A DNA stretch of 64,000 bases from Armatimonadota bacterium (GTDB lineage: Bacteria; Armatimonadota; Zipacnadia; Zipacnadales; UBA11051): assembly GCA_013178155.1 (NCBI GenBank), contig JABLXH010000025.1, forward strand, positions 1 through 64,000. The letters run 5' to 3'. Each line of letters begins with the position of its first letter. The stretch's first letter is position 1. This document shows, piece after piece, positions 6,670 through 32,979 of this stretch. The position numbers were made by a program, and so were the translations under genes. The notes under the pieces are model-generated. The model was not told where the DNA came from, made no database searches, and was given only the letters and a program-made list of their open reading frames with translations.

Positions 6670-7839
6670 CTACTCTCCCTCTGCCTGTTTCAGGCCCCCG
6701 CCAGGCTCACCAAAGCTGTCTGCCTCTTCGCGAGTCGGTCGGAACCACGCCTGCGCGATTAGTGTCGGCACCACGGCGCTGGCGATGACCACGGACACCA
6801 GCACCGTGTACTGTGCCTGCGTTATGAGACCTCGGTTGAACCCAAAGAGCGCTGAGATGCTGCCAAAGGTGAGACCGGTCGACATGAGCAGGGTCGTGTA
6901 GGAGCCTTGTTTGCTGGTGAAACGGAAGGCCCGGGTCCAGGGCCAGACACCCATGAACTTGGCAACCACCTTGACGAACAACAGCACTAGCGCCAGGCCG
7001 GCTGCACCGGCCAGAGCAGGGAGCGATACGAGAGCGCCAGCGCGCAGGAAGTAGAACGGGGTCAGAAACGCGAAAACTGTGGTTCTCAACCGCCGGACCA
7101 TCTCGCGCTGCTGCGCAAACACCGTGGCCACCGCAAGGCCCAGAAGGTAGGCAGGCAGGACCGCTTCGCTGTTTGCCTTCAGGGCGACGCCTCCCAGGGC
7201 GAATAGGAGCAGGAAAATGAGTTTGGTGCCAGGCTCGGACACATGGCTGCCATACCGCTCCACGAGCCGTTCGATGAGACGGGGAGCGAAAAGCAGCGTC
7301 AGGACCGTCACGGCGGCAAACATGATCAGCCAGAGATTGTAGTTGGCGAAGATCACGCCCAGCGCCAGTACGGTGCCCAGGTCCGTGATGAAGCAGGCGG
7401 CCAGTATCACTTTCCCCAGAGGAGTCTCATTGAGCCGCGTCTCGACCATCACCGCGTACACGACGGCTACCGAGGTCGTGGACAGGGCGATGCCGCCGAT
7501 CCAGGAGGCGGCAGGGGTCCATCCGGCGACGTAGTAGCAGTAAGCGGCAGCCCCCAGAAACGGCATGAGAAAGGAGAAGAAACCGATGGCCAGGCTCTCC
7601 TTCAGGTACCGCCTGAGGGTGTTGGGCTCTACCTCCGCGCCGGCCATGAAGGTCAGCAGGATGCTGCCGAAGCCCGCGAGGAAGGTGATCCACTCGGCGG
7701 TGGGGAGCTGAAGAAAGTTACCGGCGACGACGCCGACCAGGATCTCTACCAGCGCAACGGAGACCGCTGTCCTGATCGAGATCAGGCTGGCCGCAAAAGC
7801 GAGGCCAACCCAGGCGGCGGCGATGAACCACTGATTCAT
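6670..7839 (-). CDS. Cation:proton antiporter (CPA2/KefB-like Na+/H+ exchanger)
   Basis: Polytopic membrane protein; LAGFGSILLTFMAGAEVEPNTLRRYLKES, ALSTTSVAVVYAVMVE; start MNQWFIAAA at 7839. Confidence 0.9.
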   Translation of the reverse strand: MNQWFIAAAWVGLAFAASLISIRTAVSVALVEILVGVVAGNFLQLPTAEWITFLAGFGSILLTFMAGAEVEPNTLRRYLKESLAIGFFSFLMPFLGAAAYCYYVAGWTPAASWIGGIALSTTSVAVVYAVMVETRLNETPLGKVILAACFITDLGTVLALGVIFANYNLWLIMFAAVTVLTLLFAPRLIERLVERYGSHVSEPGTKLIFLLLFALGGVALKANSEAVLPAYLLGLAVATVFAQQREMVRRLRTTVFAFLTPFYFLRAGALVSLPALAGAAGLALVLLFVKVVAKFMGVWPWTRAFRFTSKQGSYTTLLMSTGLTFGSISALFGFNRGLITQAQYTVLVSVVIASAVVPTLIAQAWFRPTREEADSFGEPGGGLKQAEGE

Positions 7840-8011
7840 GGACCTACCCTCCAGATCCAAAGGGCAGGCGGTGGGATAGTCCGCTCTGCCGGAGTGTCGG
7901 GTGGCAGGGCGGAGGAGACAAAGACTCCTACGCACCTGCTGGTGGTAGGAGTCATCAGTCGCGAAGACAATGCCGGGCCGTAAGCCCGCGGCGAACTCCA
8001 TCGCCGGCAGT

Positions 8012-8041
8012 ACTATAGCAGCCACGCCCGGCCACTGTCAA
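8012..8041 (-). promoter_or_regulatory. Sigma70-like promoter for antiporter/UspA genes
   Basis: Minus strand TTGACA (8041-8036), 18 nt spacer, TATAGT (8017-8012). Confidence 0.65.
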
Positions 8042-27790: not shown

Positions 27791-30520
27791 CTACTCGTCG
27801 TCCGCAACGGGTACAAAGTCTTGCGGTATGTTCGGGTCGGGCGGCGGCAGCGCCGCCAGAGCGTCATCGTTCTCCACAGGCAGAGAGGCTGCGGTCCCGC
27901 CCAGCGCCGCCTCCACCATGCCGGCACCAATCAGCACCTGCCGCGGCTTCGGGCCCTGACTGGGCCCCACCACCCCGCGTTGGGCCATCATGTCAATGAG
28001 CCGGCCAGCGCGGGCATAGCCCACCTTGAAGCGACGCTGGATCATCGAGACCGAGGCCTCGCCCTCCGAGACTACATAACGCACCGCGTCGGCGTACAGT
28101 TCGTCGGTCGGCTCGACGTCACTGGAGTAGTCCTCTTCCTCGGGCACCTCCGGGATGATACTGTAGCTCGGCTCGCCCTGGCTACGGCAGTACTCGGCCA
28201 CTGCCTCAATCTCCTGCCGCGACACGAAGGCACCCTGGACCCGGCGAGGCTTGCTGGCGTCAATCGGTGCGTAGAGCATATCTCCGCGCCCGATCAGCCG
28301 CTCCGCGCCCACGCCATCCAGGATGGTCCGCGAATCCACCTGCGACGCCACCGACAGGGCGATGCGCGAGGGGATGTTGGCCTTGATGTTGCCCGTCACC
28401 ACCTTCACCGAGGGGCGCTGGGTCGCCACGACCAGGTGAATGCCGGTAGCTCGTGCCAACTGCGCGATGCGGCACAGTGAGAACTCAAACTCCGCTCGCG
28501 CCTGCATCATCAGGTCAGCCAGCTCGTCAATGATGATGACGACCCGCGGCAGGGCGCGGGTGCGATGGTCCTCGGGTCCAATGACCACACGCCACGGCTC
28601 GATGGGGTCGTCATTCTCCAGCACCACTCCCCCCCACTCCATCATGTCCATGAGCCGCTTGGCCTGGCCCTCGTCCAGCTTCAGGCGTTTCTGCAGCTCC
28701 TCCAGCGTAATGGTCTGTCGTCCCGCGGCCAGACGCGCCCCGGCGGCAAAGAAGTTGTACTCAGAGATGTTGGCCGCACTCACCTTCGCAAACTGGTCCA
28801 GGCGCTTCTCCATCTCGCGGATGGCCTTGCGCAGCACGTCAGCGGCCTGCTGCACCGTGTTGACGACGGGAGACATCAGGTGCGGGATGCCCTCATAGAG
28901 GTTCAGCTCGACGCGCTTGGGGTCCACCATGATGAGCTGAACATCGTGGGGCCGGGAATGCATGAGCAGGCTGACGATGATGGAGTGCAGACACACGCTC
29001 TTACCCGAGTTGGTAGCCCCCGCGATCAGCAGATGAGGCATATGCGCCAGGTCGGCGATCACCGGGTGCCCGGCAATGTCACGGCCCAGGGCCACCGCCA
29101 GGGGCGAGGGGTGATGGGCGAACTCGGGACATTCGATAAGCGGCCGCAGCCCCACCGTCACCTTTTTCTTGTTGGGCACCTCGATGCCCACGGCTGATTT
29201 GCCCGGGATGGGCGCCTCGACCCGCACGTCCCAGGCTGCCAGGGCCATGCGCAGGTCGTCGGTGTGCCGCGCCACCTGGTTGACGCGAATGCCCCGCTCC
29301 GGCTCCACTTCATAGCGCGTCAGCACAGGACCGCGCTCATAGTGGGTGACCTTCGCGTGGATACCGAAGCTCTCGAGTGTGTCCTCGAGTTTGATGATGG
29401 CCTCCGCCGCCACCTCCCGGTCCTCGCGAGTCTCCTCCTGGTCGGGGTACTCGATCAACAGCCCCGGTGAGGGGAGTTGGTAAAGAGCCTCGTCATCCAG
29501 CAGCGATTGCTGCTTGGAGCGGGTGTTTGCCCGGCCGCTGGAACCCCCAGCTTTCCTCGCGGCGACCGCGGGGGACGGCCTCGCCGCTGGTCGCCCGTCA
29601 GCACTGGGCACTGGGTCGGTGTCGCTGGCTGGCGGCCCGACCGGGGCGGCGGCTTCGGCTTGCGGCTCTGGCTCCGGTCCGGGCGCAGGTTCTGTCCTGC
29701 TTTCGGGCTCCGGTTCCGGAACACGCATTGGCAGTTCTCCGGCACCGTTGTCAAGGTCCACAATGGGCCCGCGGGATGGGGCCGCTGACCCGCGGCGAGG
29801 TCGCGGCCGTTTGCTGCTGGGTGTGCGCGGTCCTGGCTCGCGCCGCCGACGCTGGACCAGCCCCACCCCACCGGAAGCTGCCCGCAGGCCCTGACCCGCC
29901 GCCCGGCGCATCCATCCCAGCACCAGCGGCAGGCTGGCCTGGGTGATGAGAACGAGCGACGCCGCGGCCACGCCGGCCAGGATAATGTACGCTACGGGCG
30001 CCCCGACCGCCGCCAGAAGCAGGAAAGCCACCGCCGCGCCGAGGTAGCCGCCGCGCGAGAGCAGCGCCTCTTCGGCAAACAGGTATCGGAAGCGCGCAAG
30101 GCCACGGGAAGGCTGGGGAGCTGGGGTTGTGCTCGCGGCCCCCTCGTCGTCGCTCGCCACCTTGCCCTCGATGGCTTTGAGTGGCGGCGACGTGCGGGGG
30201 GGGCGCGGCGTGCTCAGGTGCACTGTGGCCAGGACCGCCACATAGAGCAGCGCGATGCCGATGAGTGCGCGGTTGGGTGCGACCGGGGGATTCTCCAGAC
30301 CGTAGAAGGCGGCCAGGCAGAAGGCGACAAGCGGCACACCGAAGGCGCCAATGCCCAGCACCAGGGTCATACCCCGCGCCATGGCGCGGGTCAGGCCATA
30401 GCCCTCGCCCCCCAACACCAGAGCCGCCAGGAGGAAGGCGCCCAGAGTGATGAAGGCGATGGCCAGGAGGTCCTTGTGGAGCCGGTCAGAGCCGGCCGCC
30501 GGTGCGGCACGCTTCGGCAA
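27791..30520 (-). CDS. ftsK: DNA translocase FtsK/SpoIIIE
   Basis: N-terminal TM segments; HLLIAGATNSGKSVCLHSIIVSLL Walker A; MVDPKRVELNLYEGIPHL; VVIIIDELADLMMQ; C-terminal gamma winged helix SMIQRRFKVGYARAGRLIDMMAQRGVVG. Confidence 0.95.
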   Translation of the reverse strand: MPKRAAPAAGSDRLHKDLLAIAFITLGAFLLAALVLGGEGYGLTRAMARGMTLVLGIGAFGVPLVAFCLAAFYGLENPPVAPNRALIGIALLYVAVLATVHLSTPRPPRTSPPLKAIEGKVASDDEGAASTTPAPQPSRGLARFRYLFAEEALLSRGGYLGAAVAFLLLAAVGAPVAYIILAGVAAASLVLITQASLPLVLGWMRRAAGQGLRAASGGVGLVQRRRREPGPRTPSSKRPRPRRGSAAPSRGPIVDLDNGAGELPMRVPEPEPESRTEPAPGPEPEPQAEAAAPVGPPASDTDPVPSADGRPAARPSPAVAARKAGGSSGRANTRSKQQSLLDDEALYQLPSPGLLIEYPDQEETREDREVAAEAIIKLEDTLESFGIHAKVTHYERGPVLTRYEVEPERGIRVNQVARHTDDLRMALAAWDVRVEAPIPGKSAVGIEVPNKKKVTVGLRPLIECPEFAHHPSPLAVALGRDIAGHPVIADLAHMPHLLIAGATNSGKSVCLHSIIVSLLMHSRPHDVQLIMVDPKRVELNLYEGIPHLMSPVVNTVQQAADVLRKAIREMEKRLDQFAKVSAANISEYNFFAAGARLAAGRQTITLEELQKRLKLDEGQAKRLMDMMEWGGVVLENDDPIEPWRVVIGPEDHRTRALPRVVIIIDELADLMMQARAEFEFSLCRIAQLARATGIHLVVATQRPSVKVVTGNIKANIPSRIALSVASQVDSRTILDGVGAERLIGRGDMLYAPIDASKPRRVQGAFVSRQEIEAVAEYCRSQGEPSYSIIPEVPEEEDYSSDVEPTDELYADAVRYVVSEGEASVSMIQRRFKVGYARAGRLIDMMAQRGVVGPSQGPKPRQVLIGAGMVEAALGGTAASLPVENDDALAALPPPDPNIPQDFVPVADDE

Positions 30521-30666
30521 AGGCGGTTCACCCTCCGATGGCGTCGTCGTAGCGAGTGCGAAGGTGGGCGGGTGACATGCCGGACGCCCTGCCGCCCGAG
30601 GCGGTAGAGCACTCCTGCGGCATTATAGCACAGTACTCCCCAAAAGCAAGTGGCGGCCCAAAGCAA

Positions 30667-30694
30667 GGGGCCGCCGTGGCAGATCGGCGGCCCC
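30667..30694 (-). terminator. Terminator-like hairpin after the riboswitch-linked pseudopilin gene
   Basis: GGGGCCGCC (30667-30675) / GGCGGCCCC (30686-30694); T-containing tract follows on minus strand. Confidence 0.65.
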
Positions 30695-30724: not shown

Positions 30725-31438
30725 TTAGTAGAGATCGTAGGCGCTGGCGTCAGCCGAAAGGTCACCCAGGTCGGGCTGACCAGCCATCACGTTGTACTTG
30801 CGTGCCTCGGCTTTGGCGTGGCCATCCACATAGACGACGTTGGCGGTGCCGTTGTGACGGTAGTGCACCTGCGGGCCGTAGTAGTCCACTTCATACGGTG
30901 CCTTGAGCAGGTTGTTGCCGATGATCGAGTTGGACCACCAGCTATAGATGGCGCTGTCGCACATCATCACGGTCGCCACCGGGTTGTTCACCGAGCCAAG
31001 GCTGGCGGGGCCGCGGCGGGGGCCCCACATGTCCACGGGATTGGAGCCCAGAAACGATGTGTTGTAGGCGTAGCCCGTGTACTTGCGGTCGCTTCCGCTG
31101 ATGCGGAAGCTGGGACACCCGCGGATCTGGCCGTTGCGCGTGTAGGCCTCCAGCAGGCCCGGCCCCGCTTCGGTCCACGTCATCGGGTCCAGCGAGCAGT
31201 CCCAGTAGTGCAGCCAGTCCTCATAGTAGGCCAGTGGCATCGTCTCGTCGTAATCCTGGCAGTACATTAAGGCCGCCAGCCCCAACTGCTTGAGGTTTGA
31301 CAGACAGCTGGTCTGGCGGGCCTTCTCCCGTGCTTTAGCAAAGACCGGGAAGAGGATCGCCGCGAGAATGGCGATAATGGCGATGACGACGAGCAACTCG
31401 ATGAGCGTGAAACCGGTGCGACGGCGGACGTGGAACAT
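30725..31438 (-). CDS. Type II secretion/prepilin-type N-terminal cleavage protein, DUF1559-like pseudopilin
   Basis: [60 protein letters not shown]-terminal [30 protein letters not shown] upstream. Confidence 0.95.
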
Positions 31439-31588
31439 GAAAGACCTCCTTACGGCCACCCTGGAGCCGTAGTCTGGTAAGCCGGCTGCATCGGGTCGAG
31501 GAGCGAGAGGGGGCGTCCAGAGAAGACAAAACGCCCATCCCCTCCCCTCGAGAGGATGAAACCGGTCGCGCTCCACGGAGGAGCGCAA

Positions 31589-31759
31589 GGGCTCGTGGCG
31601 TCGTCTCCTGGCTTCCGGCTAAGCCTACCGGTCCGCACCTTCCCAACCGACCTGGAGGTCAGTCAGTGGCTTGGCGCTGACTGCAGCGCGCGGACTTTCG
31701 TACCGGTTACAGTTGCGGGGCAGCGACGGCTTGTACCGTCTTCCGACCTCCGCGAGCCC
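31589..31759 (-). ncRNA. Cobalamin (B12) riboswitch
   Basis: Minus strand: P1 GGGCTCG...CGAGCCC; GCTGCCCCGCAACTGTAACCGG; AAGCCACTG; GTTGGGAAGGTGCGGACCGGTAGGCTTAGCCGGAAGCCAGGAGAC (B12 box). Confidence 0.95.
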
Positions 31760-31783
31760 GGGGGTGCAGCAATTGTGTCCGAT

Positions 31784-31812
31784 AGTCTACCAACAGCGCT
31801 CCGGTAAGTCAA
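31784..31812 (-). promoter_or_regulatory. Sigma70-like promoter driving the riboswitch-pseudopilin transcript
   Basis: Minus strand TTGACT (31812-31807), 17 nt, TAGACT (31789-31784). Confidence 0.55.
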
Positions 31813-32291
31813 GGGCGTCTGGTGCCACCCGCAGCAACTGGTCGCAGGGCTTTCGCGACCAATTCGTCCGCTGACAGGGCACCCTCGTGGCGCCACAACT
31901 CATGGCCCGCAGCATCCACCATTATCTGGGTCGGAACGATCCGGAGTCGCCAGCGCTGGGCCTCCGCGAGGTGCACATCGGTGTCCACGCGCACAATGTC
32001 CAGCTTGTCCTTCAAACAGGGTGCTGCTTCCGCCAGCACCTTGTCCATCGCCTGACACTCGGCACACTCGTCGGAGCCGAACTCCACCAGACACGGCCGA
32101 CCGGAGCCAGTGGGGATGGCGGGCGCCTCCTGGGCGTGACCGTCAGCGGATGCGGGCAGGCGGCAGGTATCGCAGCCCGCACTCGCCATCATCTCCGCTG
32201 GTGGCGACCCGCCTCGGCCCAGCCGCAGGCCAGCGGCCATTGCGACAACGGCCACCACGACCACGAGCCCAACCACCCGGTAACGCGCCAT
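31809..32291 (-). CDS. Membrane-anchored thioredoxin-like protein
   Basis: N-terminal TM; PCLVEFGSDECAECQAMDKVL, IVRVDTDVHLAEAQRWRLRIVPTQIMVDAAG; extra CDTC motif near N-terminus. Confidence 0.85.
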   Translation of the reverse strand: MARYRVVGLVVVVAVVAMAAGLRLGRGGSPPAEMMASAGCDTCRLPASADGHAQEAPAIPTGSGRPCLVEFGSDECAECQAMDKVLAEAAPCLKDKLDIVRVDTDVHLAEAQRWRLRIVPTQIMVDAAGHELWRHEGALSADELVAKALRPVAAGGTRRP

Positions 32292-32334: not shown

Positions 32335-32979
32335 TTACGGCAGGTTCTTCCACATGTTGCGCGGCGCAATCGTCTGCTCATACCGTGCCCACTTGGCGTG
32401 GCCGTCGAAGAACAGGTAGTTGCTACCGCCCTGATGCCGCCGCTCAACCCTCCAGACTGGAGGGAAGGAATGAGTGTGATAGTCAGGGCATACCCGACAG
32501 GTGGCCTTCACCGACTCACCCAGCATGATCAGTTCGGCGGGGCGGTGCAGTGAAGACATCGGATAAACCCCGCCGAAGGGCAGACCCGTGAAATTGGGGT
32601 CCGATGGATTGAGGGTGAAACCATCGCACAGGTAGCCATAGCTGCCGACAAAGTTGTGGCCGCCGATGGCGCCCTTGTGCGAGGGACAGCAGAACACCTG
32701 GCTGTTTTTCACATAGGGCATACTCACCTCGAACCAGTACGAGTACACCAGGCCGTTGGGATCGTGGAAGTCGCGGAAGCAGTGCGGCAGGGCCATCTCG
32801 TCATAGTCCTGGCTGTACATCAGTGCCGCTGTGCCGAGCTGCTTGAGGTTGCTGAGGCAAGAGATGCTGCGCGCCTTCTCCCTTGCCTGAGCGAACACCG
32901 GCATGAGTATGGCGGCCAGAATCGCGATGATGGCGATGACAACAAGTAGCTCGATCAGTGTGAAGCCCCGGGTCCGCAT
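32335..32979 (-). CDS. Prepilin-type N-terminal cleavage protein, DUF1559-like pseudopilin
   Basis: [88 protein letters not shown]. Confidence 0.95.

Follow-up and report, generated by a model that had tools for sequence, protein, structure and literature searches.

The window analysed here, a 64,000-nucleotide stretch (C130) of an Armatimonadota MAG of the class Zipacnadia/WS1 (5.53 Mb, 211 contigs, 95.6% complete), carries on its minus strand a cobalamin riboswitch, a gene for a prepilin-type protein and, further downstream, ftsK. The aptamer, at 31580-31809 (-), matches Rfam RF00174 over all 189 model positions in an Infernal search of the window, and its score of 65.2 bits (E 7.6e-14) exceeds the curated gathering score of 31.5 bits. 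An earlier note on this DNA had proposed such a riboswitch on this strand and had named its core sequence boxes; the search bears out the identification and all of the named boxes are present, the B12 box (GCCAGGAGAC) and the conserved core being found in an alignment with 22 relatives. The core is closed by a perfect P1 helix, GGGCTCG/CGAGCCC, at about 31589-31759 (-), as the note had read it, and this is a better closing stem than that of the covariance model, which begins upstream of the promoter. A kissing-loop pairing between L5 and L13 (AAGCC/GGCUU) is possible in the window, with no significant covariation across 36 alignment rows in a crude register. The Rfam scan of the window returned one other match, a fluoride riboswitch (RF01734, 7939-8014 (-), 36.9 bits) located at the start of, or overlapping, a long frame (6670-8025) for an integral-membrane cation/proton-antiporter-like protein.

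Transcription of the riboswitch may start from a sigma-70-like promoter, TTGACT-N17-TAGACT, at 31812-31784 (-), which overlaps the stop codon of the thioredoxin-like gene upstream (31809-32288 (-)), itself outside the riboswitch transcript. The promoter named in the earlier note is present and agrees with the consensus at 9 of 12 positions, with a TG ahead of the second hexamer; because chance would supply about 0.7 such sites in the region scanned, it is weak evidence when taken alone. Between the aptamer and the pilin gene lies a feature that the note had missed, a terminator-like hairpin of 11 pairs with a T-rich tail (CGTTTTGTCT) at 31534-31560 (-). This hairpin is the predicted expression platform, in its OFF state when B12 is bound. 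In isolation it is predicted to fold as drawn; the predicted minimum-energy fold of the whole 148-nt leader differs and does not contain it. A ribosome-binding site, AAGGAGG, can be read from the sequence at 31445-31451 (-), about 6 nt before the ATG.

The first gene downstream of the riboswitch, as previously claimed, encodes a prepilin-type DUF1559/H-X9-DG pseudopilin of 237 aa (30725-31438 (-), ATG start). The protein possesses a class III signal peptide (GFTLIEL) followed by a hydrophobic N-helix, matches N_methyl (35.6 bits) and TIGR02532 (32.3 bits), and scores over the cut-offs of both PF07596 (DUF1559/SBP_bac_10, 39.2 bits, spanning profile positions 2-41 only) and TIGR04294 (H-X9-DG, 21.0 bits). 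The hairpin scan also recovered the terminator-like hairpin that the note had placed between this gene and ftsK, at 30652-30675 (-), and the window pilin is probably a single-gene transcript. Since a terminator follows the pilin gene and relatives show no linkage to ftsK, riboswitch control of ftsK (27791-30520 (-), with FtsK_SpoIIIE, alpha and gamma domains) is unlikely, and that gene is not considered part of the B12 unit. A second DUF1559 pseudopilin, at 32335-32979 (-), had been offered as an internal control lacking a riboswitch; the Rfam scan of the window found no RNA match upstream of it, and in a phylogenetic tree its product clusters with unlinked paralogs, as an ordinary member of the family. 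The host genome contains 48 DUF1559 hits and three RF00174 riboswitches, and the two sets coincide at one locus, that of the window; the other two riboswitches precede a btuF-like binding-protein gene and a long ORF resembling a ribonucleotide reductase gene. A plasmid search with the window pilin protein gave no match.

Dozens of bacterial species, from several phyla, have the same pairing of riboswitch and pilin gene, often beside B12-uptake genes. Among 46 genomes of the class, 38 of 79 RF00174 matches (37 riboswitches plus that of the window), in 33 genomes, precede a DUF1559-type prepilin gene lying within about 450 nt downstream; with a generously assumed base rate of 2% per gene, the binomial probability of such a count is about 1e-39. 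We also collected the best 80 named relatives from GTDB genomes, some of which come from genomes already counted in the class search. A riboswitch above the cut-off lies upstream on the coding strand in 55 of the best 60, and in 4 of the next 20. Of the five exceptions, L161 (where a partial match is kept), L165 and L201 fall at contig ends, L195 has an AdoCbl-II match below the threshold, and L198 has none. The best 60 take in Omnitrophota, Elusimicrobiota, candidate division TA06, Fimbriimonadales, Chthonomonadaceae and 'Hebobacteria', and the next 20 contribute single cases from Verrucomicrobiota and Phycisphaerae, although single phylum labels may be affected by errors of MAG binning. The synteny that the earlier note had proposed to look for in related genomes is therefore found in the class, in the phylum and in other phyla.

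Several features set these linked pilins apart as a subfamily, which no curated model among those scanned names. Its members share a C-terminal 'LSxDDSAYDL' tail, and a profile (A2) built from riboswitch-linked pilins without the common N-helix ranks the linked genes at the top in the class. Within the host genome this profile gives the window pilin 265 bits and the next paralog 83.8, a gap that is partly by construction, because the profile was built from linked members. This circularity is addressed by a blind test in which the best hits were picked by protein alone, with the upstream DNA unseen and repeats of earlier loci dropped: 22 of the 26 new loci possess a riboswitch above the cut-off, one falls just below it and three have none. 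Several of these riboswitches belong to a second class, AdoCbl-II (RF01689), and the B12 wiring has therefore been kept or re-made with different aptamers. The profile that supplied these best hits, a wider one (A4), matches at E <=1e-30 in 198 of 291 genomes of the phylum. A quick maximum-likelihood tree was built from 118 sequences, row L256 being the window protein; in it every linked pilin falls in one clade (SH-aLRT 89; main subclade 98), separate from nearly all other paralogs of the host genome, and the linkage label changes 10 times on the tree, versus 38 in shuffles. Several rows in the clade that are labelled as lacking a riboswitch are contig-end or sub-threshold loci, or operons where further genes separate the riboswitch from the pilin (L225, in which DUF4465 comes first).

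AlphaFold2, given the alignment of linked pilins, predicts (pLDDT 91, pTM 0.85) a long N-helix, residues 12-62, followed by a mostly beta C-terminal domain. A search of this model against solved structures returned matches to the pilin N-helix only (E 0.7) and no known B12-binding fold, and a profile search of solved structures likewise found pilin helices only; the structural comparisons speak neither for B12 binding nor against it. The DGH motif was considered as a base-off B12-binding DxHxxG motif and rejected; H-X9-DG is common to unlinked paralogs.

At individual loci the arrangement varies. Tandem cobalamin riboswitches precede a single pilin gene at three loci (G002:C269, L053; G005:C83, L058; G041:C229, L119), which suggests steeper or two-ligand control. 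One genome (G033:C11, L089/L210) has a second riboswitch-linked pilin copy broken by a TAG stop and an intact copy elsewhere. At two loci from two genomes (L154, L155) groES-groEL-like genes follow immediately downstream of the riboswitch-pilin unit.

The pilin travels with genes of B12 acquisition and salvage. A recurrent partner gene is present at 46 of 59 riboswitch loci, and within the taxonomic order many linked pilins head an operon that runs on with btuF, btuD and btuC. Among the 59 loci, btuF is within reach at 27, btuC at 18, btuD at 17, cobU, cobT and a methyltransferase at five each, and DUF4465, whose domains have been shown experimentally to bind B12 (PMC13398666), at three. The corresponding Pfam matches are Peripla_BP_2 (BtuF type), FecCD (BtuC type), CobU, CobT and DUF4465, along with CobQ-type amidotransferase, cobalamin adenosyltransferase and homocysteine S-methyltransferase. 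Also counted among the recurrent partners are two unnamed secreted families that are not known B12 genes, one at 12 loci and the other at six. The larger, called 'DFIVFGN' here after its motif, includes some PEP-CTERM proteins, is encoded downstream of the pilin in Fimbriimonadia/Chthonomonadia and some Zipacnadia (for example L199, L205, L197, L187, L204, L209 and L119), and has no Pfam or NCBIfam match beyond PEP-CTERM; it is a candidate for a new B12-scavenging protein. A diphthamide-synthase-like gene (PF01902) lies between btuF and btuD in four riboswitch-pilin operons, called by Pfam at L173 and by similarity at L175, L176 and L179. In the host genome btuF is absent beside the pilin; because the window pilin stands alone, its uptake role in the host is argued from homology.

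In 48 of 64 pilin-linked leaders, versus 6.5 expected from shuffles, a terminator-like hairpin with a T-run separates the riboswitch from the pilin gene. Ligand binding should therefore halt transcription in most members, including that of the window, and the pilin would be made when B12 is scarce. Because of this terminator, the riboswitch transcript in the window probably ends before the pilin gene when B12 is plentiful, an early end that is the expected OFF state and no refutation of the pairing. The terminator scan found no visible terminator in many Fimbriimonadia/Chthonomonadia leaders; the expression platform thus varies, and where the terminator is missing, control may be exerted on translation.

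B12 very likely regulates the pilin, and the pilin is likely to contribute to corrinoid acquisition. Adenosylcobalamin or a related cobamide would bind the nascent leader RNA, the ligand-bound leader would favour the terminator at 31560-31534, and the pseudopilin would be produced only during B12 shortage. It would then be processed by prepilin peptidase, handled by the apparatus of type IV pili or of type II secretion, and act together with BtuFCD at the cell envelope in acquiring corrinoids. Secretins are encoded in all 46 genomes of the class and the host encodes several PilB/GspE-type ATPases; assembly of the pilin is therefore feasible and an outer membrane likely. The explanation that we judge the probable one, reasoning from genomic sequence, is a pseudopilin which B12 represses and starvation induces, with a part in corrinoid acquisition, although both the direction of regulation and the uptake role are steps that we infer. 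The reading of the locus in the earlier note is supported, and the corrinoid capture that it had suggested would fit well with the linked subfamily and with the operons shared with B12 transport and salvage genes.

How the pilin would take part can be envisioned in more than one way. It is tentatively possible, and in our view somewhat doubtful, that the pseudopilin itself binds or delivers corrinoid as a subunit of a filament, such that a short B12-repressed pilus or pseudopilus captures external B12 and hands it across the outer membrane to BtuF, in place of BtuB/TonB where a lineage has no TonB-dependent receptors; direct corrinoid binding by the pilin is speculative. A rather unlikely account holds that a B12-regulated minor pseudopilin primes type II secretion of B12-scavenging proteins and never touches B12. 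The order of genes in Fimbriimonadia/Chthonomonadia, where the pilin is followed by the secreted 'DFIVFGN' family (12 loci), the second secreted family (6) or DUF4465 (3), is what this account would predict, and the class-wide secretins and the ATPases of the host would serve it as well, but the host and several other genomes keep the riboswitch without a secreted partner in the same transcript, and the conserved C-terminal domain and tail suggest more than priming.

Adhesion is a common role of type IV pilins, and the linked pilin can form a transcript of its own, as it probably does in the window; shortage of B12 might accordingly induce a surface filament that alters attachment, for example to B12 producers, or biofilm formation, with no direct part in transport. 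We regard this as quite unlikely, as operon linkage to btuF, btuC, btuD, cobU, cobT and cobalamin adenosyltransferase across distant lineages is overly specific for a general behaviour. Finally, the riboswitch could serve another gene, with the pilin, one of many paralogs, lying beside it by accident. Some chance neighbours are indeed expected where DUF1559 genes are as abundant as in the host (48 hits), but against this stand the counts for the class (38 of 79 riboswitches), for the named relatives (55 of 60) and for the blind loci (22 of 26), and the clade is defined by the linkage. As a general account chance adjacency is rejected by the conservation and the blind test, and we hold it to be extremely improbable.

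Most of what is understood about B12 passage across an outer membrane concerns BtuB and TonB. A TonB-receptor plug match is found in seven of the 46 class genomes, in four of them (G036, G037, G041, G042) just downstream of a cobalamin riboswitch. Across the class, pilin and plug come close to excluding one another: two genomes have both pilin and plug, 31 the pilin only, five the plug only and eight neither (p=0.014, uncorrected for relatedness); among genomes at least 88% complete the corresponding counts are 1, 25, 2 and 0 (p=0.008, likewise uncorrected), so that each of these genomes has at least one of the two. Phylum-wide, again with relatedness uncorrected, the association depends on the pilin cut-off (loose, p=0.31; strict, p=6e-6), and strict exclusivity of BtuB and pilin across the phylum is unsupported at the loose cut-off. 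Replacement of BtuB by the pilin can be hypothesized for Zipacnadia, short of an established rule. At five loci (L085, L086, L076, L118 and L121) riboswitches precede ExbB/ExbD/TonB-like or TonB-receptor genes instead, and the genomes concerned lack the pilin, apart from G041, where both occur.

The riboswitch adds a new member to a known class, and a pseudopilin as its conserved target is undescribed in the literature searched. Like other representatives of RF00174 and of AdoCbl-II (RF01689), that of the window has a full-length match, an adjacent terminator and, in relatives, B12-related genes downstream; unlike their known targets, the gene that it controls encodes a pseudopilin. No pseudopilin was described as a cobalamin-riboswitch target in the open-access journal papers searched; among these 'cobalamin riboswitch' combined with DUF1559 occurred in no paper, and combined with 'pseudopilin' only in an unrelated Klebsiella study. 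The window pilin shares with the PF07596/TIGR04294 type IV filament superfamily the N-methylation helix, the start of the DUF1559 domain and H-X9-DG, and the linked subfamily differs from the general PF07596 family in its 'LSxDDSAYDL' tail and its riboswitch.

The nearest functional parallels are the B12-binding surface proteins of Bacteroides (PMC8941943, PMC10404256) and a Legionella type IV pilin reportedly linked to iron acquisition (PMC13170364). In Bacteroides, BtuG, BtuH and BtuJ/DUF4465 are accessory B12-binding surface proteins that act with BtuB-BtuFCD (PMC8941943, PMC10404256, PMC13398666). Like the linked pilins, they are envelope proteins under riboswitch control whose genes lie beside btuF and btuCD, and the DUF4465 genes in three pilin operons add a likeness to BtuJ. 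They are, however, surface lipoproteins or jelly-roll proteins that act with BtuB, whereas the linked family is a pseudopilin usually found, in the class, without a TonB receptor. The Legionella protein is likewise a type IV pilin tied to nutrient acquisition, but the nutrient is iron rather than B12, and the part of the source available mentions no riboswitch (PMC13170364).

The pairing points to an undescribed pilin-type component of B12 acquisition. Of the 46 Zipacnadia genomes, 39 are without a TonB-plug match although all have secretins, and they keep BtuF-type genes under B12 control. For the crossing of the outer membrane by B12 in these bacteria, a pilin family that two riboswitch classes place under B12 regulation in several phyla is a concrete candidate that can be put to the test. 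DUF1559 is a large, poorly characterised family in Planctomycetes-like bacteria, and the finding offers a specific handle on the function of one of its proteins.
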